Position numbers and translations under genes: made by a program. Positions 8,161-48,281 of a DNA stretch of 64,000 nt are shown here, one piece after another. The stretch spans positions 1-64,000 of the forward strand of contig JAACJG010000007.1 of NCBI GenBank assembly GCA_009917695.1, written 5' to 3'. The notes beneath the pieces were generated by a model. The model was not told the origin of the DNA. It saw nothing but the letters and a program-made list of their open reading frames with translations, and did no database searches. Within the stretch, counting starts at the first letter, position 1. Each line of letters begins with the position of its first letter. Origin of the DNA: Candidatus Rifleibacterium amylolyticum. Lineage in GTDB: Bacteria; Muiribacteriota; Ozemobacteria; Ozemobacterales; Ozemobacteraceae.

Positions 8161-11115
8161 ATGGGCGAGAGGCAGGAAAGAAATATTTTCAGCAGGTACC
8201 GGGCACTTACCTGGATCGGCGGGTTGGTCTGTTTCGTGCTGGTACCATTGTTTCTGCTCGATCTGCTGGTCGATAACATGCTGCGTCTGCGCAGCGAAAA
8301 AGAGCAGCAGCAGATATTCGCCGAGATGGACAGCCGGCTCGATTTTCTCAGCCAGAATGTCGATATTTCTTACTTTCTGCACAAGCTTCTGAAAAAGCAT
8401 GTCGAACGGGCGGCCGGTCATGAACAGCCATTACACAGCCTCGAGCTCAGCATCAAAGAGCTGAAATCTCGATATCCAGGTCTTTTCAAGTTCATCGTCT
8501 GGGATAACAACGGCAAGACTGTCGATGCCCTGACCGACGAAAAAAGCTACCGCTATATCGTCAGCAATCTCTACAGCTTTTTCGGTGAAATTGCCGAACA
8601 TTGCCGCAGCGAGTATCCGGGTTTTCCTGAGCTTCTGCCAGTTGTCGAAAAGCGTATAAACATGTTCAGAGCCTATCTCGGACGCTTTCTCGTGCCATCG
8701 CATCTGCGTTACCCCTTTCAAATGGGCGCGCACGGGCGCATGATTCTCTCTGATGCTCCGCAGCGGTTTCCTCTGTTCTGGTTCGATGCGCGTTCCGATT
8801 TCACTGTCTTCTGCGCGGCCAATCCGCTTGAGCAGCACCGCCACATTGGCGTACAGAACGCCATCGATCAGTTGAACCAGGGCAACGACAATATCATTAC
8901 CGCCTTCATCGACCTGCGCAACCTGCCAGAACCATCATCCGACAACAATTTTGCCAATGAGCTGCTGCTCGAACTCGGCAAGTTTGAAAACGCATCGCTC
9001 CCGCATCGCCAGCTCAAGGATCATCTGATCGCCTTCAAACTCCTCGACCCATATCTGCGCGGCTACTGCCAGATAGATCGAAGCCGGCTGCAACACGGTT
9101 ATCCCGATCGGATCAAAGCAAAGCTTTTCGCCAGACTGGCCGTGGCAGCGGTGGTGATCCTGTTTGTATTCTACTGCTACAGCCTGCGCCTGAAGAGGCT
9201 GACCTTTTCAATCAGAACGCGCATCGCGTTGCTTTTTCTTTATGCCAATGGTCTGCCACTGCTGATTCTTGGCACCATCGGGCATGAATATCTTCAGCAA
9301 CTTGAGGGGTCGCTGCTGCACTCAGCACATCGCGACCACGAGCGCCTGCTCGAAGAAGTAGACGCCGGCTATCGCAGATTTCAGAATGTTCTGACCGAAC
9401 GCACCCGCACGCTGATGGCTTCTTATTCGGCTGAGGTAACCAACCGGTTGCCTGACAGCAATGATATTCCCTATTTCAAATCAATAATTGAACAGCTGAG
9501 TGCAGAAGAAGCCTACGTCTACGGCAGCGATGGCGAAGTGCTGCTTGCCTTTCGCAGAGCTCGAAAAGCTCAGTCGCAGAGCATGATGAAGATTTTCTCG
9601 GCTTACGCACTTCAGTATATGAATCGCAAACCTGAGATAGACAACAAACCAGCCCGGGGCGTGGGCGCGGCCAAATACCTCGAGTTGTCGACTGAGTCTC
9701 TCTCGCGCGATGGCATGACCCTCTTCCGATCGATGATGCATGTAGCAGACCGCCTCGAAAAACTGTCATTCGGAACTGAAAACAGAATGTGCTTTTTCAG
9801 ATTTTTCGGTGATAAAAGCAAGGGGTCATTTCATTCGATGCTGATGCTGTCATGGCTGCACAACCGAGTACAGGAAGCCTATGCCCGACATCTGGCCGAA
9901 GAAATGACGAGCGCTGATCGAAAAAAGATTCAGCTCGTCTGCATGTCGCAACACAGCGGCAATCTGGTGGGAAATCATCAGATTGCAGATACCAGCCTCA
10001 GGCCGGTTTTGCAGAAAGGCTTCAACCTGCAGTCTGCCCGCGAAAATGCTTTATATTACAAGGGAAAACGCTATATAGTTACTGCTCTGGCCGGCCGCCA
10101 GCTCGACAACATGTCTCTGGGCATCGTCATCGAGGCCGATGAAATAGAACGGGCTGTCAGAAAAGCTCAGATACAGCTGTTGTGGTTCGGCCTGATCAGT
10201 CTTGCAATCGTGTCTGGAGTTGCCCTGGCATTGAGCCGGCAGTTTATCAGACCGGTCAGACAGCTGGCTGAAGCGGTAAAGCAGATCGGAGCACGCAATT
10301 TCGGATTTCGCAACAAGATTGAAAGTGCTGATGAATTCGGCGATCTCGGCAGAGTTTTCAATTCAACCATGGCCGGCATGCACGAACTTGAAATCGGCAA
10401 GATCGTTCAGGCAACTCTGCTGCCGGAGGCTTATTATAAAAGCGACCGCATCGAAGTTTTTGCCCGCAGTGTTTCGATGACCAAAATGGGAGGCGATTAC
10501 TTTGATTACTGCCGGCCAGCAGCCGGACTTACCGGCGTTTTCATGGGCGATGTCGCCGGACACGGCATTCCGGCAGCGCTTATCATGGCAATGGCCAAGG
10601 CAATAGTGACGATAGACAGAGAAAGCCTCAGCGATCCTTCGCGCCTGCTGACTTCGCTGCATGATGTATTGTTCAAGCTCAAGAGCGACAACTTCAAGCG
10701 CATGATGACCTGTCAATATCTGGTGATCGACGATCACACCGGAGCATGCCGCTTTGCCAACGCCGGACATTGTTACCCGATAATTGTCTCTGAATCAGGC
10801 CGAACCTCGACTTTTGCCGAAATAGTGGGCTCGCCGGTCGGCATCTCGCGACGGGCCCGCTACAGCAACAGCGACCTTGCCATCGAACCCGGCGACTCAC
10901 TGATTCTCTACAGCGACGGCATGCTGGAAGCGAGAAATGCTCAAGGGAATGAATATGGTCCCGAACGTCTGCTCGAACTGGCTCGCCAGGCCTGGCACGC
11001 CGACATTCAGCAGTATTATCAAAACCTGTATCAGGCTAACCTGGCCTGGTCTGACAAGATCGAAGACGATATAACCATTGTCCTGATAAGGTTTTCTGCG
11101 GAGGCAACAGATTAA
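8161..11115 (+). CDS. Receptor phosphatase A1: membrane sensor with HAMP and SpoIIE/PP2C domain
   Basis: First gene of pair 1, 984 residues. TM1 is near 16-36 and is followed by a first extracytoplasmic region of about 280 residues. TM2 (321-341) and TM3 (about 355-373) come next, then a second extracytoplasmic region of about 300 residues, TM4 (672-693), HAMP (about 694-750) and a C-terminal PP2C phosphatase. Metal-site acidic residues are present: GGDYFD (D779), GDVAGHG (D797), SDG (D919) and EDD (D969, D970). SpoIIE/RsbU phosphatases dephosphorylate STAS anti-anti-sigma proteins; the true target here is unknown. Type A marks are NAGHC (H870) and LGRFLVP in the first sensor region. Its stop is separated by one base from the GTG of the partner. 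Confidence 0.9.
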   Translation: MGERQERNIFSRYRALTWIGGLVCFVLVPLFLLDLLVDNMLRLRSEKEQQQIFAEMDSRLDFLSQNVDISYFLHKLLKKHVERAAGHEQPLHSLELSIKELKSRYPGLFKFIVWDNNGKTVDALTDEKSYRYIVSNLYSFFGEIAEHCRSEYPGFPELLPVVEKRINMFRAYLGRFLVPSHLRYPFQMGAHGRMILSDAPQRFPLFWFDARSDFTVFCAANPLEQHRHIGVQNAIDQLNQGNDNIITAFIDLRNLPEPSSDNNFANELLLELGKFENASLPHRQLKDHLIAFKLLDPYLRGYCQIDRSRLQHGYPDRIKAKLFARLAVAAVVILFVFYCYSLRLKRLTFSIRTRIALLFLYANGLPLLILGTIGHEYLQQLEGSLLHSAHRDHERLLEEVDAGYRRFQNVLTERTRTLMASYSAEVTNRLPDSNDIPYFKSIIEQLSAEEAYVYGSDGEVLLAFRRARKAQSQSMMKIFSAYALQYMNRKPEIDNKPARGVGAAKYLELSTESLSRDGMTLFRSMMHVADRLEKLSFGTENRMCFFRFFGDKSKGSFHSMLMLSWLHNRVQEAYARHLAEEMTSADRKKIQLVCMSQHSGNLVGNHQIADTSLRPVLQKGFNLQSARENALYYKGKRYIVTALAGRQLDNMSLGIVIEADEIERAVRKAQIQLLWFGLISLAIVSGVALALSRQFIRPVRQLAEAVKQIGARNFGFRNKIESADEFGDLGRVFNSTMAGMHELEIGKIVQATLLPEAYYKSDRIEVFARSVSMTKMGGDYFDYCRPAAGLTGVFMGDVAGHGIPAALIMAMAKAIVTIDRESLSDPSRLLTSLHDVLFKLKSDNFKRMMTCQYLVIDDHTGACRFANAGHCYPIIVSESGRTSTFAEIVGSPVGISRRARYSNSDLAIEPGDSLILYSDGMLEARNAQGNEYGPERLLELARQAWHADIQQYYQNLYQANLAWSDKIEDDITIVLIRFSAEATD

Positions 11116-11116
11116 A

Positions 11117-14035
11117 GTGAACGCTAATCTTAAAAACCTCGCAGTCTGGATGGTGCAGACCTTTGTATTTATACTGATTCCAGTGTTGGTATTTTATGCC
11201 GGAATGAGTCACATCGACCAGCTCAGATATGAAGACAGCCTGCTTTCGGTTGAACAGAAGGTCGAAGAAACCCTGGCCAGCTTTGCCACCCACTCCAACA
11301 GCGAGGAGTTCATGGCGCGAACCTTTCGCCGCGCATTTATCGAGATGCTCGCCGCCAATCCGGCAGAAGTGATCAAAGACTACCATCAGCGACTTGCCGG
11401 AAACTTTGATTATCTGCTGTGGGATGCCTCAAACCATCTGCTTGCCGGCTCAATCGACCCGAAGAGCATCGAGGGAGACTGGCGAACAGCCATTCAGACA
11501 ATAAGCGCTGTATTTGCGCCAAGAGGCAAGCATTACGAACCCTCTGACTACGAAGTGATCAATCTCAGAAAAATTTTTGGCCCGCAGCTGGTAATCGAAG
11601 ATCTCAGCGAAAACATCTCTGAAAGCAACAACCTGCTGATGGCGACTGACAGTTCGGGCAAAAAACCGCGCTGCTGGATCGCAAGCTTCAGAGGCATCAC
11701 ACTGGTCATTCTGGTCGAACAGGCGGCTATAAGCACTTCTGACAACGGTCTGCGCTATTACATGCAGCATCTGCATCAGACCGAGGCGCCATTCATTCTG
11801 GGATTTGCCCGAAAAGACCAGATCACGAGCACTGACTCAATACCGGACCGCGAAACGGCCAGCGCGGTTTTGCGTCAGCACAGCCTCAAAAACGGATTAA
11901 AACTTGTCACGCCGCAGGCGCACTATTTCATGCGAATTATCGACGATGACCTGACGCTTTTTGCAGCCGTCAGAAAAGACTCGCTGGCGGCCGGCAGCAA
12001 TAACATTCCGTTCACAATCATGCTTATTCTGCTGCTCGCACCCTACCTCTGGATAGGCTGGAAAAATGCCGGCAATGGCATGCGCTTCTCGATATCACGC
12101 AAGCTGTTGCTGCTGTTTGCTTATTCGAGCGGCCTGCCACTTTCCATGCTGTTTTTTGTCGGTTACGATTATCTTGCGCAAAAACAGTATGCGATGTTCG
12201 ACGAAATACATGCGCAGGGCACAAAATTTCTCAAAAACTTTGACGAACGCTTCAAATCAGAAGAAGCCCGTCAGATCTTTCAGATAAGCCACGCCCTGGA
12301 GGAGTTGAAAGAGGCCTGCCGAAACCAGCCGATTGCGGTTGAGCCCTATAAAATCTTCGCCGACAAAGCAACCGCTGATCTTGCAGATCGCCACGACCTG
12401 CGCATGTTCATGGTGGCCAGTGAAACCAGGTTTACCGGCACGATAACCGCTGCCTACATCAATAACAAACGCATCGAAATCACCAGCGAGCGAATCAGCG
12501 AACGTACCAGAAAAAAGAAAGACGAAGAAGCCGAGGCCTTTACCGCGCTGTTGCGCTTCATTCTTTCGACCCTCAATGGCGACACGATAGATGCGCGAAC
12601 AGCGACCGAAATCGAAATGATCGCCGAATCGATAATGCAGAAATCGCTGCTCGAAGTGCAGAATGAGTTTCTTCAGGCAAACGGCCAGATCACCATGATG
12701 GGGCTTGGCACCAGCCGCAGCCGCGCGCTGGTCGAACTGATTTCGCTGCATACCGGCAAAAAGTATGACTTTCTGCTGATGGCAACCTGGAACGCCGAAG
12801 TTCTCGAGCACACTTATGCCCGACGGCAGTTTCTCAATGCCAGTCGTAATATAGATCATCTGCAACTGGGTATGATCAACGAAGATTCTTCACTCTCTTT
12901 TCCGGCAGACTTCGCCGGAAATATAGCTTTGCGCGAATATGCCAGAAAATTTACGCACAGACCGGTGCCACCACGCCAGTTCATAACCATCAACCACCAG
13001 GACTACCTGATCATGGGCTTTCGCGGCAAATATATGAGTTATTTCAATCTTTTCGGCCTCTACCCGGCTCAGCTGATCAAAGACAAGATCTACCACGAAA
13101 AGAAGCGACTGATCAGCTTCGGGTTCATGTCACTGCTGCTCGCTATGCTTCTCGGGCAGCTGCTGTCTTACAGTTTTCTCTATCCGCTCAAGATTCTGGC
13201 GGAAGGGGCCGAAGCTATTCAGCTGCGCAATTTCGACAAGCGTCTGCCCGAGCTTGGCCGCGATGAGTTTGGCGAAATGGCGAGGGTTTTTAACACAACC
13301 ATGGTTGATTTTGAAGAACTTAAGGTTGCCGGAGCGGTGCAGGAACACCTGTTGCCGGGCAAACTTCCTGAACCCGAAGGCTGCCGCATTTACGCCCGCA
13401 GTTTTTCGCGCGGCGATCTTGGCGGCGACTACTACGACTGTTTTATCAGCGCTGATGACCACCTCTGCCTGCTCACCGGCGACGTCAGCGGCCATGGTGC
13501 CGGGGCAGCTCTGATAATGGCGATGGCCAAGGCCGCAATAATGAAGCTCGAAAATCTGCACAATGCCCCGGCCGAACTGCTGATGCGCATGCACCAGCTG
13601 ATAGCCGCTACCGGACAGCATCAGCTCAAAACCATGTCATTCCAGTTCTTCAATATCGATGTCAACTCGTGCCAGGCTGTTTACAGCAATGCCGGCAGCT
13701 GGCCACCTCTGTTGATCAGCCATGATCAAAAGACAATCAGCGAGATATCACTGCCCGGGCCGCGACTTGGAGCATTAAAAAAACCGCAATTCACCAGTCG
13801 AAAGCTCACCTTCGGCAACGGTGAAACTTTGCTGCTTTATACCGACGGCCTGATTAAAGCTCTTGATATTCGCAGTCAGATGATCGGCCTCGAAAATTTC
13901 AAAATAATGGCTGTAGAAAACTTTCACCCCGATCCGCAGACATTTTTTGACCGGCTTATGGCGGCTCACCGCATGCGAACAGGCAATCGTGAGCTTCAGG
14001 ATGACACCACTCTCATCATCGTCGTTTTCAATTAA
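11117..14035 (+). CDS. Receptor phosphatase B1, partner of A1
   Basis: The protein has 972 residues and starts at a GTG one base after the A1 stop, which points to translational coupling. TMs lie near 7-29, 297-315, 330-352 and 665-686, followed by HAMP and PP2C. Core acidic residues are kept (GGDYYD, GDVSGHG, YTDG, QDD). Type B marks are FGPQL in the first sensor region and NAGSW in place of NAGHC (S861). After YTDG it reads LIKALD where its paralogues have an acidic (I/L)xE, so B1 is the most divergent B member at this site. No type IV or secretion genes are nearby; the only neighbours are further paralogues. Confidence 0.9.
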   Translation: MNANLKNLAVWMVQTFVFILIPVLVFYAGMSHIDQLRYEDSLLSVEQKVEETLASFATHSNSEEFMARTFRRAFIEMLAANPAEVIKDYHQRLAGNFDYLLWDASNHLLAGSIDPKSIEGDWRTAIQTISAVFAPRGKHYEPSDYEVINLRKIFGPQLVIEDLSENISESNNLLMATDSSGKKPRCWIASFRGITLVILVEQAAISTSDNGLRYYMQHLHQTEAPFILGFARKDQITSTDSIPDRETASAVLRQHSLKNGLKLVTPQAHYFMRIIDDDLTLFAAVRKDSLAAGSNNIPFTIMLILLLAPYLWIGWKNAGNGMRFSISRKLLLLFAYSSGLPLSMLFFVGYDYLAQKQYAMFDEIHAQGTKFLKNFDERFKSEEARQIFQISHALEELKEACRNQPIAVEPYKIFADKATADLADRHDLRMFMVASETRFTGTITAAYINNKRIEITSERISERTRKKKDEEAEAFTALLRFILSTLNGDTIDARTATEIEMIAESIMQKSLLEVQNEFLQANGQITMMGLGTSRSRALVELISLHTGKKYDFLLMATWNAEVLEHTYARRQFLNASRNIDHLQLGMINEDSSLSFPADFAGNIALREYARKFTHRPVPPRQFITINHQDYLIMGFRGKYMSYFNLFGLYPAQLIKDKIYHEKKRLISFGFMSLLLAMLLGQLLSYSFLYPLKILAEGAEAIQLRNFDKRLPELGRDEFGEMARVFNTTMVDFEELKVAGAVQEHLLPGKLPEPEGCRIYARSFSRGDLGGDYYDCFISADDHLCLLTGDVSGHGAGAALIMAMAKAAIMKLENLHNAPAELLMRMHQLIAATGQHQLKTMSFQFFNIDVNSCQAVYSNAGSWPPLLISHDQKTISEISLPGPRLGALKKPQFTSRKLTFGNGETLLLYTDGLIKALDIRSQMIGLENFKIMAVENFHPDPQTFFDRLMAAHRMRTGNRELQDDTTLIIVVFN

Positions 14036-14043
14036 CACTGTTT

Positions 14044-14128: not shown

Positions 14129-17077
14129 ATGAGCTCAGACACACAACTGCCGCTTCAGCACAGATGGCCAATCGCCTTCTGGAGTGGAGTTGTTCTGTTT
14201 TTCGTATTTTTCCCGCTGTTTCTGCTCGACGTCGGCCTCGAAAGCCTGCTGGAAACCCGGCAGAATCTTCAAAAACAGGAGCTTTATCGAGCTCTCGAAC
14301 AGAATCTCGAAAAGCTTCTGCAATACCGCAACAGCCGCCACTATTACCATGCTCTGCTGAAGAGGGTTTTTGAACTGGCAGAATTACAACCGCAGCCGGC
14401 GGCCTATTTGAAAAATGCACTTAATCAGCTGAAACAGCGTAATCCCGGCACTTTCAGATTCATTGTCTGGAACGACAGGGGAGAAATCATCGATGAACTG
14501 ACCGATGAAAAGGGCTACCGCTATATCGTCAGGTCTCTCTACGAAGCTTTTAAAGAAATTACCATCGACAGCACAGAAAATTACCCGGGCAAACCAGAAC
14601 TCCTGCCAATCATTGAGAATCGTGGCAAGATGAACATATTGCGCAGTTACCTTGGCGCTTTTCTGGTTCCTGAATACATGAATCTGCCGATGTTGCGGGC
14701 CAGTCTGGGCGAATGCATCATAGCTTCGTCGGATCAGGATCGGGCGAACTTCTGGTTTCAGATTGGCAAAAAAGTCGGAATGTTTGCACAGATAAGCCGG
14801 CAGGCAGTGGGATCGGCCGATTATCTGGAAAAACTGGTAACCGGCATAAACAAGGCTTCAGACCCCAGCTTCAAAATTGGAATCATCGAATTGACCAGCG
14901 CCAATGTCATGTTTACCGGCAGCGAACTGAGTCATTCTGAAGAGGTTCTCATCGAGCTCAAAAAGTTTCAACACTTTGCCGAACCCAGACTCGAAACCGA
15001 AAATTACCTGATTCTGGCACGAATGGTATCGCAATCGATCATGGGTTTCAGCCTGGTCGAGAAAGAAGGCCGGGTTATCGTCCCCCGCCTGGCCCGCGGC
15101 CAGATAATGACGGGTGCGGTCTTACTGATTCTGCTCATTGCCGCCGGGCTTTATTCGTTTTTCAAGATTTCCGGCCTGATTTCAATCAGATACAAACTGG
15201 CAATACTTTTTATATACGCCAACGGGCTGCCCCTGATTATTCTAGGGTTTCTCGGTTATGAGTATCTGCAGCAGACCAGACGCCTTCTCATCGACCAGGC
15301 ACACGAAAAAACCGCAGCGCTGCTCAGAGATTTCGATTCCCGCTACGAACTGATCAAAGCCGAATATGCAGAGCATATCAATGCCTTCGTAGATGAAATC
15401 AACCGACAGAGCACAGGGCAGTCAATAAAACTTGACGAACACGAAAAACTTGTAGACTGGATAAATGCTACCAGACCTTATGATTTTGTTTTAATCAATG
15501 AATCCGGCAGATTCCAGTCAGGCTATCCCGGTGCCAACCGCTCCGGCAATTTTTTCGCCAACATGGGCCGAAACCTGCTCGAATACATAAATATTGCCTC
15601 ATATTCAGATCCCTCGATATTCAAAGATGTACAATTGAGCCGGCGCGATTCGGCCGCAGACTTTCTCGGCACCAAAAAAGTTGTGTTCCACCAGTTTTTG
15701 CGCCGCATCCGCAAAATCAACCCTGAACAGATGGGCGCTGAAGGTCGGCAATACTACTGGAATATTTTCGGCAATTCCGAACAGAGAAAGTTTACCAATA
15801 TTCTTGTGGTCTCCTGGCTACACTCTGTTTTACAGGAATCTTACGTTAAAAAGACGATAGAGGATCTCAACAACAATGCCGGCAACATCAAGTGCTTTGC
15901 GATTGTCGATAACAACGGAGTGACTTATCCTGAAGACAAACAGCCTGACCGCGAGATATTCAACCTTTTCAGGCAGGCATTCGGCCTTCAGATGATAAGA
16001 AGCGATAAGATACAGATGGCCGGCATAGAATACGCCGCTTTTGCCACAATAGGAAGACAGCTCAACCATATTGCCATCGTCGGGTTATATCCGCTCGCTA
16101 CCATCAATCAGCAGATCGATACCCTGCGCATGCGACTTATCGTGTTTGCACTGCTCAGCCTCGCTCTTACCATTGGCATCGGAAAGCTTCTATCTGCCCA
16201 GTTTATGCAACCGGTTAAGCAGCTGGAAGAAGGTGTTCAGGCTATCGGACGACAGGACTTCAGATATCGCCTGCAGATCGCCTCGCAAGACGAGTTCGGA
16301 CACCTCGGCTCCGTTTTCAACAACGCCATCGAGAGCCTTGAAGACCTTGAAGTCGCCAAAGTTGTTCAGGAAAACCTGTTTCCGCTCGAAAACCTTGTAC
16401 AGAACAATATAGAAGTATATGGCCGCAGCGTTACCATGAGCCGACTGGGCGGCGATTATTATGACTTTTTCACGGTCAATCAGCAGCATGTCGGCATTTT
16501 GATGGGAGATGTCGCCGGGCATGGCGTTCCTGCCGCGCTGCTGATGGCAATGGCCAAGGCTTCAGTTCTTATCGCCGGCGACAAGACATCGTTACCCTCG
16601 CAGCTGCTGACATCTCTGCACAAGGTCATCTTTCGCATAAAAAGCAGCAAAATCAGGCGCATGATGACCTGCCAGTATTTCTGCATCGATTCGCTGACAG
16701 GCGAATACCTCTTTTCCAACGCCGGTCACTGTTTTCCGGCAATTATCGGCAAGGAAGGGCAGGAAGTCAGCCTGCTTCAAGCCATTGGCTCGCCGCTGGG
16801 CGTGTCGAGAAGAGCAAAGTATGAAGACCTCGCGAATCAACTCAACGACGGTGATATAGTGCTTCTTTATACTGACGGCATAATCGAAGCACAGAACAAT
16901 GAAGGCAAAGAAATGGGTTTTGACAGGTTTACCGCTATCTTGAAAAACGAATACAGCAGTGACCTTGAAACCTATTATAACCGTATCTTTGCTGCTTATC
17001 TGAAATGGTCAACCAAGGCCGACGATGACATCACCCTGGTACTGATAAGATTTGCCGGGAAAGAGGCAAAAGCATGA
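14129..17077 (+). CDS. Receptor phosphatase A2
   Basis: Type A member of 982 residues, opening pair 2. TM1 (17-35) reads FFPLFLLDV; TM2 and TM3 lie near 325-346 and 355-378, and TM4 near 671-690. The first sensor region holds FRFIVWNDRG and LTDEKGYRYIV, a signature shared by A1, A5 and, loosely, the other A members. LGAFLVPEYMNLP follows. The phosphatase keeps GGDYYDFF, GDVAGHGVPAAL, TDGIIEAQN and DDDIT, and NAGHC (H867) is intact, so it is expected to be active. The upstream ribosome binding site is weak. The stop overlaps the ATG of B2 by four bases (ATGA). Confidence 0.9.
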   Translation: MSSDTQLPLQHRWPIAFWSGVVLFFVFFPLFLLDVGLESLLETRQNLQKQELYRALEQNLEKLLQYRNSRHYYHALLKRVFELAELQPQPAAYLKNALNQLKQRNPGTFRFIVWNDRGEIIDELTDEKGYRYIVRSLYEAFKEITIDSTENYPGKPELLPIIENRGKMNILRSYLGAFLVPEYMNLPMLRASLGECIIASSDQDRANFWFQIGKKVGMFAQISRQAVGSADYLEKLVTGINKASDPSFKIGIIELTSANVMFTGSELSHSEEVLIELKKFQHFAEPRLETENYLILARMVSQSIMGFSLVEKEGRVIVPRLARGQIMTGAVLLILLIAAGLYSFFKISGLISIRYKLAILFIYANGLPLIILGFLGYEYLQQTRRLLIDQAHEKTAALLRDFDSRYELIKAEYAEHINAFVDEINRQSTGQSIKLDEHEKLVDWINATRPYDFVLINESGRFQSGYPGANRSGNFFANMGRNLLEYINIASYSDPSIFKDVQLSRRDSAADFLGTKKVVFHQFLRRIRKINPEQMGAEGRQYYWNIFGNSEQRKFTNILVVSWLHSVLQESYVKKTIEDLNNNAGNIKCFAIVDNNGVTYPEDKQPDREIFNLFRQAFGLQMIRSDKIQMAGIEYAAFATIGRQLNHIAIVGLYPLATINQQIDTLRMRLIVFALLSLALTIGIGKLLSAQFMQPVKQLEEGVQAIGRQDFRYRLQIASQDEFGHLGSVFNNAIESLEDLEVAKVVQENLFPLENLVQNNIEVYGRSVTMSRLGGDYYDFFTVNQQHVGILMGDVAGHGVPAALLMAMAKASVLIAGDKTSLPSQLLTSLHKVIFRIKSSKIRRMMTCQYFCIDSLTGEYLFSNAGHCFPAIIGKEGQEVSLLQAIGSPLGVSRRAKYEDLANQLNDGDIVLLYTDGIIEAQNNEGKEMGFDRFTAILKNEYSSDLETYYNRIFAAYLKWSTKADDDITLVLIRFAGKEAKA

Positions 17078-20064
17078 GCCGTCAGTCATGGTTCAATAAA
17101 TTTTTCTACTGGTCACTGCTCATGCTTTGCTTCGTAGCACTGCCAGGATTTCTCGTTGCTCTGGGTTTCTTTTATACAGCCTCACAGAATCGCCAGAACG
17201 AGCTGCAACAGCACAGCGAAAAGATCAGAGGCTTCTACCAGAATCTTCAGCAGTTCGCCAACAACGAGGCCTTTTTCTGCAATTACCTCAATCTGACATT
17301 CACAGCCGGCATGTTCAAAAATAATGCTGAAAAAAAGCTGACCAAGAGCGAAATACAGAAAGAACTGGAACAAAAACTCGTGCAGACAAAACAGAAGTTT
17401 GGATTCGAATATGTATTGTATGAGCTCGACAAAGGAATCGCCAGTTGCTCTTTTGTCATGGAAAACAAGCATGACTGGCTGCTGACAATGGATCTGATCA
17501 GCAAGTTTTACATCAGCAACAACGCCAGAGTGAGCGAAGAGGCGTTTCTGGCCAGTGGAAGAATACTGGGGCCACAGTTGAACCTGCTGCATCTCGAAAA
17601 AAGCCGCGACCCGGAAGAGCCGCACCTGGTTTATCCCGACAGCTGTTTTAAAAAACCGATGCTCTGGACAGGAGTCATATCAGGCTTTCAGATTCTGTTT
17701 CTGATCAAACCTGAAAGTCTTGATTCAAGCGATGGTCTGTGGAACCAGGCCGAAGAATTCAGCCACAGTTCACAAGCGCTTTACCGATTTTCCATAGCCG
17801 AAAAGAACAGTTTTCGCCACGCGAAAGTCAGCGAAGATCTTCGCAGTCAGCTCGAAATCGCCTATAAACAACATGAAACCGGAAAGATGTCGCAGATCGA
17901 AACCGAAGACCTGATAGTATTTCCAAAATTCATCAACCACCGCACCACCCTGATCGGCTACCTTGAAAAAAGTCATCTTGGCGGCGGCAACCTGACTCTG
18001 CCGGCAACGCTTGCGACTCTGGCTTTTATTATATTTGCACTTGCCTTTGGCAGATATTCACATGGTCTTATTGTCGGCGACAGACCCGACAATCTTTCTC
18101 TGCGCTGGAAACTGCGTTTTCTGTTTTTCTTCGCCAACGGTCTGCCTTTGATCGTCCTGTTTTTCATCGGTAATGACTACCTCGATCAGAAACGTGACAA
18201 CCTGCTGCGCGAAATGCATGGCAAGGGCATACAGTTCGTGCAGGACTTCGACGAAAAAATCGAAATTGAATACGCCAAAGCTCTGGCATCCAAAAAGACC
18301 GCGACAGATGGACTGCTCGACGAACTTGCCACCCAACCGCTGAACAACGAGTTAATCAAGGATTTTGCCGGAAAACTTTCTAAAAATGCTGACTGGAAAG
18401 TTGTGTTGATCGCCAGCCGCAGCAACGTGATCGGGACAGAAGACGGCATAATTGATGACAAACGAGGGATATATCCACCCGGCTACGACCGGAAAAATGA
18501 TCAGGGCCTTAAACAAAGGGAATACACCAGCAAGGTAGGACAATTCTTTCTCGACAAGATAAATGGCTCGAAAATTTCTGACAAGACTGCTACAGAAATC
18601 GAAATGCTCCTCGAATCAGTAACTCAGAAGCCTATGGTGAATTTCATTTTTGATATGCTGCGAAATCGTGGCAACTTTATCGACTGGGGCTTCGGCCGCA
18701 ATATACATCCATCTATTCTTGACACCTTCAGCCTCAAGAATTCAGGCACAGCTGACTACTTCTTTATCGCAACAATTCGTCGACTGACTTTTCAATTCGA
18801 TTTTCTCAAAAATTATATTCCTCAGGCGAATCGCAACAAGCTTGGCCTGCGCATAATCGCCGTGCACAGCAACCGCTTTTCGGTTCCAAACGAAGCTTAC
18901 CAGGACCATAACATCAGACAGTTCGCCGGCACTCTCACCACCTATCCAGGCGACGAAATCAAGTTTCTGACCTTTGACGGCGTTGAATATCTGGCCATGG
19001 GGTTTGAAGGCAAATTCATCAAAGAATACAAGCTGATCGGCCTGTATCCGCTTGAAAACATCGACAAAGTCATCGGCCATCAGAAAACGCAGCTGATAAC
19101 ATTCGCTCTGCTCAGCCTGCTGATGACTCTGGTTCTTTCGCAGGTTCTCAGCCAGAGTTTTCTGGTGCCGTTGCAGCTCTTGACAACCGGCGCCAAAGCT
19201 ATTGAAAGCAAGAATTTCAAACATCGTCTGCCCGACCTTGGCCGTGACGAATTCGGTTCGATGGGCGGCATATTCAACCATGTCATGATCGACCTCGAAG
19301 AGCTCTCGGTTGCCGGCGCCATTCAGGAACAGCTCCTGCCACAGCAGCAGATCGAAACCGGCTGTTTCAGTCTTTATGGCCGCAGCATTGCGATGGGCGA
19401 ACTTGGCGGCGATTATTTTGACCACATACAGGTAGCCGATGACCGGTTCAGCGTTCTGCTTGGCGATGTTGCCGGACACGGCGTCGGTGCAGCTCTGATC
19501 ATGGCCATGGCCAAAGCCGGGATCATTCAGTCTGACGAACTGCTCGATAAGCCTCTGGCTCTGATAGAACGTCTGCACAGCCTTATCTATGCGTCCAAGA
19601 CCAAAAAGCAGAAGAAAGTCATGACCTTTCAGTATCTTTGCGTCAACTCGCAGACAGGCTGTGGCATATATGCAAACGCCGGCGCCTGCTCACCGATGAT
19701 AATTCGCCGAGAACGCAATGAAGTCGAAGAACTTACCCTGGCCGGAGCCGCGCTTGGAGCGTTTAAGAAGGCTAATTATTCTGAAATCGAAATTGTGTTC
19801 GAGCCCGGAGATGCAATTGTGTTTTATACCGACGGTATCGTTGAAGCTCGCAACAGCAGCGGCGAAGAAATGGGCTACGACAATCTGAAAAAGCTTCTTG
19901 CCGCCAGCTGGAACGAAGACGCTGAAATTTTCTACAACAACATTTATCAGGGCTATATGGATCACCTCAAAGGCGAAGGGGCACAAGACGACCTCACCAT
20001 GGTCATACTGGTCTTTACCGGAAAGCAACAGCAAAAGCCAGAGTCTGAGCATGAAACAGCTTGA
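17074..20064 (+). CDS. Receptor phosphatase B2, partner of A2
   Basis: Type B member of 996 residues, starting at the ATGA overlap with A2. TMs lie near 9-32, 308-328, 348-368 and 674-693. The first sensor region includes the LGPQLNLLHL signature. The second has WGFGRN, a motif shared in variant form by all B members and absent from A members. The PP2C domain has GGDYFDH, GDVAGHGVGAAL, TDGIVEARN and AQDDLT; the NAGH His is Ala (A871). Its last 14 bases overlap the start of A3, so pairs 2 and 3 are also physically linked. Confidence 0.9.
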   Translation: MSRQSWFNKFFYWSLLMLCFVALPGFLVALGFFYTASQNRQNELQQHSEKIRGFYQNLQQFANNEAFFCNYLNLTFTAGMFKNNAEKKLTKSEIQKELEQKLVQTKQKFGFEYVLYELDKGIASCSFVMENKHDWLLTMDLISKFYISNNARVSEEAFLASGRILGPQLNLLHLEKSRDPEEPHLVYPDSCFKKPMLWTGVISGFQILFLIKPESLDSSDGLWNQAEEFSHSSQALYRFSIAEKNSFRHAKVSEDLRSQLEIAYKQHETGKMSQIETEDLIVFPKFINHRTTLIGYLEKSHLGGGNLTLPATLATLAFIIFALAFGRYSHGLIVGDRPDNLSLRWKLRFLFFFANGLPLIVLFFIGNDYLDQKRDNLLREMHGKGIQFVQDFDEKIEIEYAKALASKKTATDGLLDELATQPLNNELIKDFAGKLSKNADWKVVLIASRSNVIGTEDGIIDDKRGIYPPGYDRKNDQGLKQREYTSKVGQFFLDKINGSKISDKTATEIEMLLESVTQKPMVNFIFDMLRNRGNFIDWGFGRNIHPSILDTFSLKNSGTADYFFIATIRRLTFQFDFLKNYIPQANRNKLGLRIIAVHSNRFSVPNEAYQDHNIRQFAGTLTTYPGDEIKFLTFDGVEYLAMGFEGKFIKEYKLIGLYPLENIDKVIGHQKTQLITFALLSLLMTLVLSQVLSQSFLVPLQLLTTGAKAIESKNFKHRLPDLGRDEFGSMGGIFNHVMIDLEELSVAGAIQEQLLPQQQIETGCFSLYGRSIAMGELGGDYFDHIQVADDRFSVLLGDVAGHGVGAALIMAMAKAGIIQSDELLDKPLALIERLHSLIYASKTKKQKKVMTFQYLCVNSQTGCGIYANAGACSPMIIRRERNEVEELTLAGAALGAFKKANYSEIEIVFEPGDAIVFYTDGIVEARNSSGEEMGYDNLKKLLAASWNEDAEIFYNNIYQGYMDHLKGEGAQDDLTMVILVFTGKQQQKPESEHETA

Positions 20065-26870: not shown

Positions 26871-26880
26871 GGTTAAAGCC

Positions 26881-28359: not shown

Positions 28360-28390
28360 ATCTGTGAGGCCGGGTCTCCCGGGAGGGCTC

Positions 28391-35866: not shown

Positions 35867-37501
35867 ATGATTAATCCGCTCGATGATCTTATCATGTCAC
35901 GCAATCAGAAAGGCCTCGACGAACTCGAAAAACTGGCCGGATTTTCCCCGGGCAAAGGCGGCAAGGACAAGTTCAGCGAAGTAGCCGGCAAGGTTGGCAA
36001 AAAAGCCGAAACCACCCCAGAAGCCGGGAAAGAGAGCGGTGATGACCGGCATTGGAATATTCATAAGGAATTCGCCCGCATTTATGACAAATCGGGGCGT
36101 TCGTTTGCTCTTTTTGTTGGCGACCTGCTCGACATAATGCTCAGCGGCCCGGTTCAGACACGTCTGGTCAATGAAATGATCGAAGACAAGATCAATCGCA
36201 TGCGCAAGGCCAGAGAAGCCGCAGCTGAGCCATCGACCCAGAAGGTAAAGGTTCAGGCCAAACGCAACTCAAAATACGAAGTCAATATCGGCGGCGAAAA
36301 GCGTGTTTTCTCGCGCCACTTTTTAAAGCGCAAAAGCTTTCTGGCAGCGCTTTTCCTTGACAGCGAAGAATACCAGTCCTACAAAAAGCTGATTAAACAG
36401 CTTGAAGTTGTCTGCCGCGAAAGCATCGAAGAGGATTTGCCCGGCAGCGAAAGCGAGCGCCGGGAGGCACTAGACAAGATTGTTGGCGAACTGCGCTATG
36501 AAATACATCAGCACGATGTGGTCAAAGCCTGGGCGCTGCTCGAAGCCGATACTTTCAAACATCTTGAGTGGTTCTTCAGTCAGACCAAAGATCTGCACCT
36601 GGTTCGGCCCGATTTCTACGATGATCTCGACAAGGCCTACCGCGATGCCAAGAAGCTGCTCAAGCTGATGATTCAGGATATCCAGGAAGAGTTTCCGCCG
36701 GAAGTTGAAAAGCAGGATGCCTACGAAGACTACCTCAAAGACATTCTCGAAGTGTACACACATCATCATTTTGTATTGAAACGCTATCATCAGACCCGCC
36801 CGGCGATTTCACTCAAGGACTTCGAACTGACCAAAGAAGAAATGCAGGAGAAGATCGAAGAGCTGCGCGATGAAAGCGATGAACTGCGCCGGCGCATCAA
36901 CAGCCTGAACGTCGAAAAAGACCAGGCACTGGGCGAGGCGCGCGCACTCAAAAACAGCAACGACGAACTGAAACAGAAACTCGACCGGCTTGACCCGGCT
37001 GAGGTTCAAAAGCAGATCAGAGCCGCTGAGGCGAAGGTCAATGCTGCCGAAAAAGAGCTGCAGGAAACTCTCGAAGAAGAAGCCGAACTGCGCAGCGACA
37101 TGCGCAAACTCGACGAAGAAAACCAGGAGCTGACGCGCAAGCTCCAGCAGTTGCACGCTATTCCAGACGAAAGCGCCTACTCGGTAGAGAACCTCATGGT
37201 CGGCAAGCGTGTCGCGATTTTCGGCGGCGTCGGGCGCGACCATTACTGGCCTATTCTTAAAGAAGCCGGTGTCGATAACGAAGACTACGAATGGTATGAA
37301 GGCTATCACACCATCAGTCAGGCCCGTACCGCTGAAATAGTCGGGCGCTGCGACCTGGTGGTAGTGGTCACTGCCTATGCCGGCCATCTGCTGCTTTACC
37401 AGGTACGCCCGTGCATACAACCGCACCAGCATTTCTTCAAGATTCACAAGAGCGGGGCAGGTTCGTTGCGCAAAGAAATTATCAAAACTTTCAAAAAATA
37501 A
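35867..37501 (+). CDS. Coiled-coil protein with C-terminal DUF2325-like domain
   Basis: The protein has 544 residues. The N-terminal 300 are charged, helical and not recognised. A long coiled coil follows (about 315-440, with REL/EEL heptads). The last 95 residues resemble DUF2325 (KRVAIFGGVGRDHYW, then CDLVVVVTAYAGH and a Lys-rich end), a small Rossmann-like domain of unknown function. It is soluble, with no signal peptide. The position directly after the FHA-GAF protein suggests a shared pathway, possibly as a phosphorylated ligand of the FHA domain, but this is a guess. Confidence 0.7.
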   Translation: MINPLDDLIMSRNQKGLDELEKLAGFSPGKGGKDKFSEVAGKVGKKAETTPEAGKESGDDRHWNIHKEFARIYDKSGRSFALFVGDLLDIMLSGPVQTRLVNEMIEDKINRMRKAREAAAEPSTQKVKVQAKRNSKYEVNIGGEKRVFSRHFLKRKSFLAALFLDSEEYQSYKKLIKQLEVVCRESIEEDLPGSESERREALDKIVGELRYEIHQHDVVKAWALLEADTFKHLEWFFSQTKDLHLVRPDFYDDLDKAYRDAKKLLKLMIQDIQEEFPPEVEKQDAYEDYLKDILEVYTHHHFVLKRYHQTRPAISLKDFELTKEEMQEKIEELRDESDELRRRINSLNVEKDQALGEARALKNSNDELKQKLDRLDPAEVQKQIRAAEAKVNAAEKELQETLEEEAELRSDMRKLDEENQELTRKLQQLHAIPDESAYSVENLMVGKRVAIFGGVGRDHYWPILKEAGVDNEDYEWYEGYHTISQARTAEIVGRCDLVVVVTAYAGHLLLYQVRPCIQPHQHFFKIHKSGAGSLRKEIIKTFKK

Positions 37502-37535: not shown

Positions 37536-38111
37536 ATGACGATAACACCTGAAGAACTCTGGAAAGATGCCCGGCGCGGCGACCAGTCGGCGTGGCAGCA
37601 GCTTTACGGATTGTTCGGCGGGCCGGTTTATCAGTTCTTTCTCAGAAATACCAGAAACGTCGAAATGGCAGCTGACAAAACTCAGGAAGTCTTTCTGCGG
37701 ATCTTCAAAAGCCGCGAAGCATTCAGCGGTGGGTCGTTGAAAAGCTGGATATTCAGAATCGCCCGCAACCTGCTTATCGACGAGTGGCGAAAGTCAGGGC
37801 ACCGCGAAGTCCTGTCAGAAAATCTGCCTGAAGTAGCTGACCAGTCGATGCCGGTCGAAGAAGAAGTCATCAACGCGATCGAACATGCGCAGATGAAAGC
37901 CATGATCGATGAGTGTCTCGAACTTCTCGACGAAGACAGCCGTATGACTGTATGTCTGGTATATCTGGCCGGGCTGAGCATTCCAGAACTGGCCGAAGTG
38001 ATGGAAATGCCGCTGGGCACAGCTAAAACGCGGGTGCGACAGGCTCGCCTCAAACTCGACGCCATGCTCTGCGAGAAAATGCAGATAAAAAGGGTTGAAC
38101 AAGGCCTATGA
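37536..38111 (+). CDS. ECF-type RNA polymerase sigma factor
   Basis: A 191-residue sigma-70 family protein of ECF size. Region 2 is visible as DKTQEVFLRIFKSRE followed by LKSWIFRIARNLLIDEWRK, and region 4 as LAGLSIPELAEVMEMPLGTAKTRVRQAR, a helix-turn-helix that reads the -35 element. There is no region 1 or 3. It overlaps the next gene by four bases, and that gene encodes a matching membrane anti-sigma factor, so activity is probably controlled by release. No strong ribosome binding site is seen before the ATG. Confidence 0.93.
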   Translation: MTITPEELWKDARRGDQSAWQQLYGLFGGPVYQFFLRNTRNVEMAADKTQEVFLRIFKSREAFSGGSLKSWIFRIARNLLIDEWRKSGHREVLSENLPEVADQSMPVEEEVINAIEHAQMKAMIDECLELLDEDSRMTVCLVYLAGLSIPELAEVMEMPLGTAKTRVRQARLKLDAMLCEKMQIKRVEQGL

Positions 38112-42393: not shown

Positions 42394-42410
42394 AGTCTTG
42401 ATATCTGCAT

Positions 42411-42455: not shown

Positions 42456-42499
42456 ATTATAAGCGAGACTGCCGGAACACTATTCAGGAGCGCAGATAG

Positions 42500-45388
42500 A
42501 TGATAGCGCAAAAACAGACGTTACAGAAGCGCTTTCCGGTATTTACCGGCCTTGCGCTGTTCATCTGTTTTGCTCTTTTTCCGCTGTTTCTCATCGACGC
42601 TGCGCTGAGTCGGGTGTTGCAGATTCAATATGAGAAAAATCTCGATCGGGCTGGAAAACAGCTCGACAGCGCTCTGAATACTCTTGAAAAATACAGCAGC
42701 GACAGTCATTTTGCTCACCTGCTTCTTAAAGATACTTTTCAGAAAGCTTTAAACAGCGACACCCCAAAGGCGGAACTGCATAACCAGCTACAGCAGCTGA
42801 AGCAGCAGCATCCCGGCATGTTCTTTTTCATAGTCTGGGATGAAAGCGGCAGCATAATCAGAGAAGCTACCGACGAAACCGCCTTCGCCTATATTCTTCG
42901 CGAAGTCTATAAACTGCTGCACGATCTCGCCGAAAACTGCCGCCGCTATTATCCCGGCGCACCCGAAAAGATCGCCGGCATCGATCGTCGCCTCAAACTG
43001 GTGCGCCATTATATCGGCAGAATTGTCTCCCAAAATTGGCTGCAACGCCCGTTACAATCAGAACGCAAGGCCAGCACCATAATTGCAGAGGCTTCTGGTA
43101 AAAAAAACCAGTTCTGGTATGCTGTCGACCAACGCATAACCATGCTGGCCTTCATTCACAGCGACTTTTTTGTCGGCAACCCAGGACTGAAATATGCAAT
43201 TAAAAGACTGCAAGCCGATAATCCTGCATTGCAGGCAGGATTCACCAGATATCCGATCGATCCTGAAACCATTTTTCTGCCTGATAAAGAAGCTGAACCG
43301 GCTGATATTGCGATTGCCGTCAGCCGCTTCGAGAATCTCTATCCCGGCAATCTGCTTCGTCACAAAGGCAAGCTGCTATCATACCGTTATATAAACCCCG
43401 ATATCAGAGCGTTCTGCTACCTGCCCGAACAGATGCTGCCCGATGTGGCGCAGCGTAAGATGGAACTGGCTATCCAGCTTCTGTTATTGCTCGGGATTCT
43501 CATCTTTCTCGCATGGCTGGCGTCAAAAAAACACCAGATCACCCATGTTCCCGCACAGATCAAGCTTTCTGCGCTCTTTCTCTATGCCGGCGGCATACCA
43601 CTTCTTATCATTTTTATCATTGGCGCGGATTATCTACAGCAGAAACGCCATGAACTCATCTATGCCGGGCAGTCGCACGGACTAGAGCAACTGCGCCAGA
43701 TCGACGATGGTTTTGTCGATTATCTCGCCAGCAGCGCCGAAAAAATCAGAAAGCTCCTGCAAAACCATATAGACAAAGACCTGCCCCTGGAGCAGCAGAA
43801 AAACAGTATTGCTCAACTGCGAGCAAAGCTCGGCCGAGAGTTTGAACCGGGCAGCATGATGCTTTTTGACACAAACGGCCGCAACCACATCGGCACCGAA
43901 GATAACATGCCATTTCCCGACCCGGCTGCGATCAGTCAGGTCAGTAAGGATACTCTCGAATTTCTCAATAAATCCAATACCTTTAACTTCTCTCTGTCTA
44001 AAATTTCACGGCCGGTTGCCATCGACTTTGGCTACCGCTCGCAATTCATCTCAAACTTCTCTGTCGGCTCACATGAAACATACGCCTTTTTTGGCAGCAC
44101 CGGCCGCCCCGAGCAATACAGGCTCTCAGGCATGTTTTTTCTGTTCTGGCGAACAGAAGACCTGCAAAGAAAATACCTCGAACTGACAATGCATGCAAAA
44201 CCTTTAATGACCGCGCATTTTCCCGAAAGCGATCTTTTTCTCAAAACTAAAACAAGACCGGGCCGGCAATTCGGCGACCTGTTGCATAAAGCATCTTCGC
44301 TCCTGATAGTCAGAAGCAGTGAAGTTTCTGATTTAGAAAGTAACTACACAGCTGCGGCAATGCGCGGCAATCATCTGAACAAGTCCTGCCTTGGCATTCG
44401 AATTCCGCTTCAACAGATAGACAAAGAAATGCAGCAGCATTATCAAAGGTTTGCCGTTCTGGCAATGCTTTTTCTATTCTTCTGCGGCGGCGGCATAATC
44501 ATGATGCGACAACGCCTGCTCGAACCTCTTAAACAGTTCAAAGAGGCGATCGAAGCGATCGGGCAGCGTAACTTCAGATACCGCCTCCAGCACACCGGGA
44601 ACAACGAGTTTGGCCAGCTCAGCCGGGCTCTTGATCATACCCTTGAGAACCTCAGCGAACTGGAAGTTGCGCGTATTGTTCAGGAAAATATTCTACCCGG
44701 CCGCGAATACCGCCAAAACCAGCTGGAACTGCTGGCAACGCTGATCCAGATGTCACATATCGGCGGCGATTATTACGACTATTTTGCCGTAAACCCTGAG
44801 ATAAGCGGAGTGTTTATCGGCGATGTTTCAGGACACGGTATTTCATCTGCGCTCGTCATGGCAATGGCGCGCTCAGCAATGATTTTCGAGAACCTTACCG
44901 AGCCCGATCAGACACATCTGATGCATACTATGAACGATGTAATTTATCAGATGCGAAAATCCGGTTCCAAAGATTACATGTCGGGACTGTCTTTTTTCAT
45001 TAATAGCAGAACCGGTGAATACAGCCTTGTCAACGCCGGTCACTGCCCGCCGATACTTATCAGAAAGGCGGCAGAAAAGGCAGAACTGCAGAAATGCAGC
45101 GGCCTCTACTTCGGCTTCAGAGAAGAGTTCGAGGCCCAACCTTTGCATGGCAAAATGGAACCCGGCGACTTTATGGTTCTCTATACCGACAGCTGGGTCG
45201 AAAGCACGGCAAAGGGTGGCATTCCTTTTGGCTTTGCGCGGTTTGAGCAGGCCTTGCTGAACTGTTGCAACAACGACCTTGCAATCTTCTCCAGGCAAAT
45301 GTATGCAACCATCGAAAATTGGGAAGAGGAGCGCGCCGACGACATGACGCTGCTCCTGATAAAATTTGGAGAAAATAATGGCTGCTGA
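42500..45388 (+). CDS. Receptor phosphatase A5, with altered catalytic motif
   Basis: Type A member of 962 residues, with a CAGGAG ribosome binding site. TMs lie near 13-32, 320-342, 352-375 and 650-672. It is the most divergent A member. The first sensor region has YIGRIVSQNW in place of YLGRFxxPE, and the HAMP-PP2C linker reads VQENILP. GGDYYDYF, GDVSGHGISSAL and ADDMT are intact and NAGHC (H848) is kept. The TDG motif reads TDSW (D897, S898) and the following EAxN reads EST. The metal Asp survives but local geometry may change. The stop lies 11 bases inside the B5 reading frame. Confidence 0.87.
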   Translation: MIAQKQTLQKRFPVFTGLALFICFALFPLFLIDAALSRVLQIQYEKNLDRAGKQLDSALNTLEKYSSDSHFAHLLLKDTFQKALNSDTPKAELHNQLQQLKQQHPGMFFFIVWDESGSIIREATDETAFAYILREVYKLLHDLAENCRRYYPGAPEKIAGIDRRLKLVRHYIGRIVSQNWLQRPLQSERKASTIIAEASGKKNQFWYAVDQRITMLAFIHSDFFVGNPGLKYAIKRLQADNPALQAGFTRYPIDPETIFLPDKEAEPADIAIAVSRFENLYPGNLLRHKGKLLSYRYINPDIRAFCYLPEQMLPDVAQRKMELAIQLLLLLGILIFLAWLASKKHQITHVPAQIKLSALFLYAGGIPLLIIFIIGADYLQQKRHELIYAGQSHGLEQLRQIDDGFVDYLASSAEKIRKLLQNHIDKDLPLEQQKNSIAQLRAKLGREFEPGSMMLFDTNGRNHIGTEDNMPFPDPAAISQVSKDTLEFLNKSNTFNFSLSKISRPVAIDFGYRSQFISNFSVGSHETYAFFGSTGRPEQYRLSGMFFLFWRTEDLQRKYLELTMHAKPLMTAHFPESDLFLKTKTRPGRQFGDLLHKASSLLIVRSSEVSDLESNYTAAAMRGNHLNKSCLGIRIPLQQIDKEMQQHYQRFAVLAMLFLFFCGGGIIMMRQRLLEPLKQFKEAIEAIGQRNFRYRLQHTGNNEFGQLSRALDHTLENLSELEVARIVQENILPGREYRQNQLELLATLIQMSHIGGDYYDYFAVNPEISGVFIGDVSGHGISSALVMAMARSAMIFENLTEPDQTHLMHTMNDVIYQMRKSGSKDYMSGLSFFINSRTGEYSLVNAGHCPPILIRKAAEKAELQKCSGLYFGFREEFEAQPLHGKMEPGDFMVLYTDSWVESTAKGGIPFGFARFEQALLNCCNNDLAIFSRQMYATIENWEEERADDMTLLLIKFGENNGC

Positions 45389-48281: not shown

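Follow-up and report, generated by a model that had tools for sequence, protein, structure and literature searches.

Does each bacterial receptor phosphatase act alone, or can two neighboring genes encode the two halves of one receptor? The question is raised by contig JAACJG010000007.1 of Candidatus Rifleibacterium amylolyticum (assembly GCA_009917695.1), of which positions 1 to 64,000 of the forward strand were analyzed (64,000 nucleotides, hereafter the window). The window encodes ten paralogous proteins of 962–1,001 amino acids (aa) with the layout TM-ECD1-TM-TM-ECD2-TM-HAMP-PP2C (TM, transmembrane helix; ECD, extracytoplasmic domain), and these proteins are arranged as five A-B pairs. An earlier note, made from the letters of this stretch, had described ten paralogous receptor phosphatases ordered A then B in every pair; open reading frames with the expected domains were present at the positions it gave in 10/10 cases, and the order was borne out in all five pairs. 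On the sequence evidence presented below, we consider it probable that each A-B pair forms an obligate heteromeric receptor phosphatase, most simply a heterodimer, and that pairing evolved more than once from single-gene receptors.

Both the HAMP (PF00672) and the SpoIIE/PP2C (PF07228) domains scored above the Pfam cut-offs in all ten window proteins, the latter at 117–152 bits compared with a cut-off of 25, and a hydropathy scan recovered the four expected TM segments in each protein. The metal-binding aspartates of the GGD, GDVxGHG, TDG, and DD motifs were also kept in all ten (metal-aspartate status was scored by motif throughout). The sensor part of these proteins, about 670–700 residues, matched no Pfam family, Cache included, above the cut-off, and it was divergent: the A sensors were only 18–27% identical to that of pair-2 A, and the B sensors 20–25% identical to that of pair-2 B.

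Tandem Pairing in the Genome and in Its Relatives

The genome (5.39 Mb, 35 contigs) contains 48 PF07228 matches. Among the 35 large PF07228 proteins examined, 32 had the four-TM layout, ten of them in the window, and the remaining three (L019, L020, and L023) were solitary with another layout. The 32 four-TM proteins made up 15 head-to-tail pairs and one tail-to-tail pair. When only PF07228 frames of at least 900 aa were counted, 30/34 lay in same-strand tandems 2.3–3.5 kb apart and two more were tail-to-tail, whereas random placement of 37 genes gave 0.43 tandem neighbors on average and never more than 4; thus, the pairs are far from chance. The members of the tail-to-tail pair (L018, G000 C8:334640–340400) overlap by 26 bases and are both catalytically intact. 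On the same contig, a frame cut at the locus edge (L028, G000 C8:315002–317578) had a four-TM sensor match (A profile, 76 bits) with no PP2C domain seen, and it may be a receptor whose output differs or was lost.

The A and B sensor profiles each matched 24 of the 39 genomes of the phylum, which are exactly the 24 genomes of one family, and none of the 15 others; follow-up covered the stronger of the matches listed. The group is Candidatus Riflebacteria, and the family is probably Ozemobacteraceae. The same adjacent pair, which the earlier note had proposed to seek in other genomes, was recovered widely: 68 A-B pairs, termed class I below, were scored in 16 genomes, always with A first. Stop and start codons overlapped in 52/68 of these pairs, and 66/68 were spaced within 20 bp. 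As a control, the spacing from B to the next same-strand A was within 20 bp in 13/30 cases and up to 5,862 bp in the rest. A further 18 contigs each showed a match without its partner; in nine of them the partner, whole or by its end, was then seen (two being broken pairs), the contig ended first in seven, and two carried broken unpaired remnants. Among the matches listed that were followed up, no intact class I A or B stood alone on a contig that extended far enough; several of the assemblies are fragmented. Many solitary A or B genes, one outcome by which the note would have given up an obligate pair, were therefore not seen for class I, the two unpaired mid-contig copies being the broken remnants.

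Several class I genes or pairs were broken into several frames (G006:C19, G006:C82, G018:C182, G023:C162, and G026:C116; loci L063, L158, L159, L153, and L157), which reflects either real decay or assembly errors. With looser labels, one A-A neighbor was found (G011 C131), which is the pair L086 that groups with the solitary proteins, and a B-B neighbor on G027 C130 proved to be a single broken B in two pieces. When two short peptide patterns were scanned outside the phylum, 23 loci were obtained; two were Spirochaete PP2C domains only, and the other 21 were labeled Riflebacteria, Ozemobacter, or uncertain metagenome-assembled genome.

Co-divergence of the A and B Sensors

In the sensor tree, A and B formed two clades of 12 rows each, with support of 100 and 99 in the Shimodaira–Hasegawa-like approximate likelihood ratio test (SH-aLRT), as the heteromer proposal of the earlier note had predicted; the mixing of A with B members that would have spoken against it did not occur in class I. 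With more genomes, the full-length tree (104 rows, one gene being held twice, G024 C10 77/78 kb, from two overlapping loci) again separated A and B (SH-aLRT 98 and 99), and its third group contained the solitary and the other paired proteins. The matching topology that had likewise been predicted was also observed. Sub-branches shared between the A and B trees included (w3,w4), (L009,(L012,w5)), and (L015,(L010a,L010b)), and the A and B sensor distances over 58 pairs gave a Mantel r of 0.96, with p 0.0005 also when shuffling was allowed only within genomes. The sensor correlation was likewise high in two further classes of pairs described below (class II, 6 pairs, r 0.97; class III, 9 pairs, r 0.91).

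In the genome of the window itself, the ten pairs gave a sensor r of 0.89 (p 0.0001), compared with 0.015 (p 0.44) for PP2C. The regional values of r were 0.83 (ECD2 half), 0.61 (N-terminal half), 0.39 (HAMP plus linker), and −0.13 (PP2C), the region cut-offs for w3_1st being shifted by a 51-residue N-terminal extension. These own-genome correlations would fit pair-specific sensing coupled to an exchangeable output.

Loss of Catalytic Residues

Among the 68 class I pairs, both subunits were intact in 46, B alone had lost catalytic residues in 15, A alone in two (in G019 and G020), and both in none, with five pairs not scored; one of the 15 B losses was a truncated frame (G023 C179, 808 aa). 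A second set of 37 tandem pairs from all classes, which shares eleven pairs with the set of 68, comprised 25 pairs with both members intact, seven with loss in the first gene only, four with loss in the second gene only (one of which, L092, is a contig-edge gap), and one with loss in both (L017). It was the first gene that decayed in class III (5/9 pairs) and in class V (2/2). All 13 solitary or convergent proteins (11 solitary, 2 convergent) were intact. In three genomes, PF07228 scores below 100 bits occurred in 12/68 tandem long frames versus 0/30 other long frames (Fisher p 0.016), with a cut-off that was picked after the scores had been seen and with L123_2nd, whose domain is split in two matches and whose site is intact, left out of the 12.

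The fate of a decayed partner was followed by comparison with orthologues in G024. The decayed B subunits of L010a and L010b were 68% and 68% identical to their orthologues in the sensor and 80% and 90% in HAMP plus linker, whereas the PP2C domains were 52% and 59% identical. PP2C identity minus sensor identity was thus −16 and −9. A close orthologue in G024 was available for 16 intact subunits, in which this difference was −4 to +24 and the PP2C domains were 61–82% identical; the two subunits of L015 lack one and lie outside this comparison. These two decayed partners keep the sensor and HAMP while PP2C drifts. A subunit that is kept for its sensor and linker, and not for its catalysis, would need a partner through which to act, and we regard this as the strongest evidence for a heteromer.

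Pair Classes and Solitary Relatives

Pairs were then added from G010, G011, G016, and G017, in which tandem pairs are common but not universal. Long frames lay in tandems in 28/42 cases in G016 and 10/22 in G010, compared with the 30/34 of the present genome; the count took frames of at least 900 aa only, and next to a gene scored as "solitary" a decayed partner too weak for the PF07228 threshold could go unnoticed. Solitary status refers to named loci at which the flanks were read. In a sensor tree of 87 rows, five pair classes (I–V) were observed, with first genes and second genes grouped apart in each, although the class III second genes fell in two pieces and the class II second genes were weakly held; the class groups were named after the tree had been viewed, and 21/87 rows stayed ungrouped. 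Classes I and II each form a clade that includes both partners (support 95 and 98), so their first/second splits look separate. One second gene, L014_2nd, had been placed among A on a long branch in a 32-row sensor tree and joined class III with more genomes. The PP2C-only tree recovered the same ten groups with 10 changes, the possible minimum being 9, several of the groups being weakly supported.

A single first/second split, separating all 37 first from all 37 second genes, was rejected at a cost of 349.5 log-likelihood units (p-AU 1.4e-55, approximately unbiased test); the same result could also come from gene conversion between the members of a pair or from swaps in gene order. Solitary four-TM relatives were present in other genera, and most of them branched apart from classes I–V. 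The simplest reading of these trees is that pairing arose repeatedly from solitary receptors, with gene conversion within pairs as the alternative. Thus, the A/B two-subunit layout of the earlier note stood for class I, but not as the sole scheme, as there are several classes and solitary forms exist in other genera.

Sequence Signatures of A and B

The short motifs that had been offered as marks of the two subunits fared less well. The B motif LGPQ was exact in three of the five window B proteins, the other two reading FGPQ and LGPH, and the A motif LG..(L/I)P was found as written in none of the five A proteins. Loosened forms recovered 4/5 A (LGxx[LFIV]xP) and 5/5 B ([LIF]GP[QH]) in the window. 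Over the 68 pairs, [LIF]GP[QH] occurred in 50/68 B versus 1/68 A and exact LGPQ in 15/68 B; LGxx[LFIV]xP, scored with I accepted in place of L, occurred in 36/68 A and also in 8/68 B. Since each motif is missing from part of its own group and turns up in the other, neither defines its group. The histidine of the NAGH motif was kept in 63/69 A versus 9/72 B. The only fixed A/B difference at 70% over 57 pairs was P801G, directly after GDVxGHG, at what we assign as the start of switch helix alpha1; it is an intriguing but unproven candidate site of asymmetry. Applied to HAMP and the linker, the same column comparison found no dense signature of an A/B interface.

Sensor Fold and Putative Output

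AlphaFold (AF2) models of the pair-2 sensor plus HAMP had a mean predicted local distance difference test score (pLDDT) of 81.7 for A and 86.0 for B. Foldseek matched these models to McpH, Tlp3, Mlp24, and PscC with moderate TM-scores to the target of 0.32–0.48. With VIA-align, B ECD2 aligned to Tlp3 (Z 10.1–10.4, root-mean-square deviation [rmsd] 6.3–6.9, 215–223 residues aligned) and to TlpB (Z 10.2, rmsd 3.0, 144 aligned), A ECD2 aligned to TlpB (Z 9.9, rmsd 3.3, 144 aligned), and A ECD1 aligned to 4zr7 (Z 9.4, rmsd 2.6, 104 aligned). The A profile found no sequence match among solved-structure chains. Judged by these models, the pair-2 sensors resemble the Cache/PAS-like ligand-binding domains of chemoreceptors and kinases; they are likely Cache-like, with dCache as a candidate assignment. 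Profile comparison of ECD1 with ECD2 gave a probability of 74 (E 3e-5) within A and no match within B, which is no more than a hint that the sensor module was duplicated internally.

The genome encodes 15 STAS and 16 HATPase_c_2 matches. No STAS or HATPase_c_2 match lay within 15 kb of any of the 15 tandem pairs, and no genomic link of the tandem pairs to such an output was thereby seen within that distance; the nearest matches to any tandem pair on the same contig were 25 kb (STAS) and 15 kb (HATPase_c_2) away. Three other PP2C genes (L019, L022, and L023) lay 0.3–2.6 kb from STAS matches. One RsbW-like kinase gene overlaps a STAS gene at C3:344 kb, and this couple adjoins genes for thymidylate kinase, a TPR protein, and a GGDEF protein; of the three neighbors scanned, none encodes a sigma factor. 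A shared, trans-acting STAS output of the pairs, in line with the common partner-switching output of the earlier note, is a plausible hypothesis.

Coordinates and Neighborhoods of the Window Pairs

All ten genes lie on the forward strand. Pair 1 consists of A at 8161–11115 (984 aa; TM 19–37, 322–340, 355–373, and 673–691; HAMP 691–737; PP2C 790–978) and B at 11117–14035 (972 aa from a GTG start; TM 8–26, 297–315, 330–348, and 665–683; HAMP 683–727; PP2C 780–969), in which NAGH is changed to NAGS. In pair 2, A spans 14129–17077 (982 aa; TM 15–33, 326–344, 357–375, and 670–688; HAMP 688–739; PP2C 785–975) and overlaps by four bases with B at 17074–20064 (996 aa; TM 15–33, 307–325, 347–365, and 674–692; HAMP 692–739; PP2C 789–979), which carries NAGA. 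Pair 3 A was taken from the ATG at 20051 to 22975 (974 aa; four TM; HAMP 681–729; PP2C 777–968), its longest frame beginning at a TTG at 19898, and pair 3 B spans 22959–25964 (1,001 aa; four TM; HAMP 705–749; PP2C 802–991). For pair 4, A runs from a GTG at 28364 to 31306 (980 aa; four TM; HAMP 688–737; PP2C 784–975), with the alternative in-frame start at 28391 that the earlier note had used, and B spans 31320–34298 (992 aa; four TM; HAMP 704–754; PP2C 801–990); the hydropathy scan showed one added stretch inside the PP2C domain of this A and a split TM4 in this B. Pair 5 comprises A at 42500–45388 (962 aa; TM 14–32, 323–341, 356–374, and 651–669; HAMP 669–719; PP2C 770–956) and B from a TTG at 45366 (ATG at 45378) to 48281 (971 aa; TM 17–35, 299–317, 335–353, and 661–679; HAMP 679–731; PP2C 776–967). 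NAGH is replaced by NAGG in the B proteins of pairs 3, 4, and 5. The metal aspartates are intact in each of these ten rows.

A lexA gene and a Y-family polymerase gene lie between pairs 3 and 4 (26247–28056). Because the same two genes share loci with class I pairs in many relatives, another genus included (L091), this neighborhood may mark the founding locus of class I. An FHA-GAF-GGDEF gene (34389–35831, forward strand) begins 90 bases downstream of the pair-4 B gene; next come a gene that weakly matches DUF2325 (35867–37501) and a sigma-70-family gene resembling the extracytoplasmic function type (37536–38111). The FHA-GGDEF gene recurs in pair-4-type loci of several relatives, partly cut by the locus ends, and the gene group is a possible candidate for a local output of pair 4. 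On the opposite strand, a gingipain-like C25 peptidase with propeptide (48349–50493) and a clostripain-family C11 peptidase (52870–55875) adjoin the receptor cluster. Two adjoining DUF4178 proteins are encoded at 58112–60024 on the forward strand, upstream of a spermidine-synthase-like gene at 60499.

Comparison with Known Systems and Proposed Mechanism

The nearest curated family is SiaA of the Pseudomonas aeruginosa SiaABCD system (NF038263, PDB 6k4e), which was the top match over the C-terminal PP2C domain in 6/6 proteins scanned of the ten; the scores, however, were 44–71 bits compared with a curated cut-off of 700, which places the proteins outside this family. The SiaA model has 658 positions, whereas the window proteins have 962–1,001 aa with two TM-ECD-TM modules. 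Moreover, SiaA has its own kinase and target in one system, in contrast to tandem receptor genes to which STAS and HATPase_c_2 matches come no nearer than 15 kb. In the excerpts of the literature drawn on here, the PP2C domain of SiaA crystallized as a homodimer, and SiaA acts on the anti-sigma factor antagonist-like SiaC (PMC7647112). The pairs share with the RsbU/RsbP/SpoIIE-type PPM phosphatases the PF07228 family and a helical segment before PP2C, and the SpoIIE metal ligands D628, D746, and D795 (PMC5468089) have motif counterparts in the window proteins by our own assignment. Judged by sequence, the pairs are a variant of the RsbU/SiaA-type receptor phosphatases, outside SiaA proper.

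Dimerization of SpoIIE rotates the switch helices alpha1-alpha2, a movement by which the metal site has been proposed to become complete (PMC5468089), and in RsbU a crossing linker activates the PP2C dimer across the switch helices, predicted HAMP-PPM dimers looking alike (PMC12143880). In the excerpts of these papers, however, RsbU and SpoIIE are homodimers, and paired paralogous receptors with one metal site lost are not described. In their way of working, the pairs most resemble heteromeric sensor kinases. FasB and FasC are two membrane sensors of one operon that form a heterodimer, FasC being a proposed pseudokinase (PMC12675982, whose excerpted discussion also names GacS-RetS as heteromeric sensor kinases), and HrrS-ChrS heterodimers were reported from two-hybrid tests (PMC9491836, in excerpt). 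Unlike the pairs, these are histidine kinases, not Ser/Thr phosphatases, and they are single systems, not 16 pairs per genome with mirrored trees. No paired or heteromeric receptor PP2C was found among the matches listed in the literature on SpoIIE/RsbU/SiaA PP2C, heterodimeric kinases, and Riflebacteria signaling.

By analogy with SpoIIE and RsbU, we proposed the following mechanism. Each subunit would bring two extracytoplasmic sensor modules, probably Cache/PAS-like, together with four TM helices and a HAMP-helical linker-PP2C arm. Pairing of the sensors and HAMP helices may bring the two PP2C domains together across the switch helices and activate them. As the partner would supply the dimer interface, one PP2C domain may be deprived of its metal site yet remain as a pseudophosphatase that still senses and activates; because dimerization activates the PP2C domains of SpoIIE and RsbU, an inactive partner could still switch on its mate. 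The active PP2C domain would most likely dephosphorylate stand-alone STAS proteins encoded elsewhere.

Alternative Explanations

The architecture, the pairing and its order, the co-diversification of the sensors, the separate inheritance of the classes, and the mostly one-sided catalytic loss can be read directly from the sequences, and the two clades, mirrored trees, and recurring pair agree with the co-evolving heteromeric sensors of the earlier note; physical heterodimerization, dimerization-driven activation, ligand binding, and a STAS substrate are what we infer from them. That contact between A and B is thus deduced is one of several points that weigh against an obligate heteromer. A pair duplicated as a unit yields mirrored trees even when its members do not touch, which accounts for part of the mirroring. 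PP2C distances also correlate outside the present genome (r 0.51 over the 58 pairs; 0.23 in G024, 0.48 in G026, and 0.82 in G007; 0.79 in class II and 0.73 in class III), and the contrast between sensor and output is therefore clear only in the own genome and class I. No fixed A/B difference at 70% was found in HAMP plus linker over 57 pairs, and hence no shared A-B interface signature. Spacing is tight also between some neighboring pairs (the 13/30 of the control). Pairs L086 and L092 fall among the solitary proteins, and L011, L018, and L135 do not sort cleanly. In the class III pair L017, metal residues are lost or changed in both partners, and the lack of doubly inactive class I pairs is not significant alone, about 0.5 being expected. 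Most pairs hold two intact phosphatases (25/37; 46/68), which would also be explained by two separate homodimeric receptors encoded in one operon, answering related signals and acting on the same or different targets, with pairing as a matter of co-regulation. Such homodimers agree with the homodimeric PP2C domains of SiaA, RsbU, and SpoIIE in the cited excerpts, with the existence of solitary four-TM relatives, and with the correlated PP2C distances of partners in several genomes and classes. However, they leave unexplained why a dead member should keep a conserved sensor, HAMP, and linker, why dead members are seen only in tandem pairs (Fisher p 0.016), and why sensors co-diverge pair by pair within one genome at an r of 0.9. 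We consider this explanation unlikely, with some weight left to it, and retain the obligate heteromer as the probable one.

A division of labor in which B is a dedicated regulatory subunit, a pseudophosphatase in the making, and A is the enzyme in all pairs would suit class I, in which 15 of the 17 scored decays are in B and the NAGH histidine, of putative role, is absent from 63/72 B (three of them gaps) and kept in most A. All ten window proteins keep the metal aspartates, however, and decay strikes the first gene in classes III and V and A in G019 and G020, so that such a fixed division is very improbable. Ordinary tandem duplication, with the pairs as recent neutral copies within a large paralogous family, might be suspected from the expansion of the family to 48 PF07228 matches and from pairs 1–3 standing in one row. 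It is contradicted by the class I trees, in which partners are not closest relatives and A and B fall into two clades, each drawing members from several genera; moreover, sensors as divergent as those of the window and a tight spacing kept in 66/68 pairs are not those of recent neutral copies, and we give this explanation almost no credence.

Implications

Beyond the single pair, we lean slightly toward a series that leads from single-gene receptor phosphatases to obligate two-subunit receptors, with at least three independent origins (class I, class II, and the side of classes III–VI), each then multiplied as a pair, with co-diversifying sensors and with one partner repeatedly becoming a pseudophosphatase; the pairs would be a main envelope-sensing currency of the family and the first known bacterial heteromeric receptor serine/threonine phosphatases. 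If true, they would be among phosphatases what FasB-FasC and other heteromeric sensor kinases are among kinases, and they would offer a replicated system for the transition from homodimer to heterodimer and for the origin of pseudoenzymes, with the solitary relatives as natural controls. The results suggest that a phylum known mainly from metagenomes may lean heavily on paired phosphatases for sensing its surroundings.

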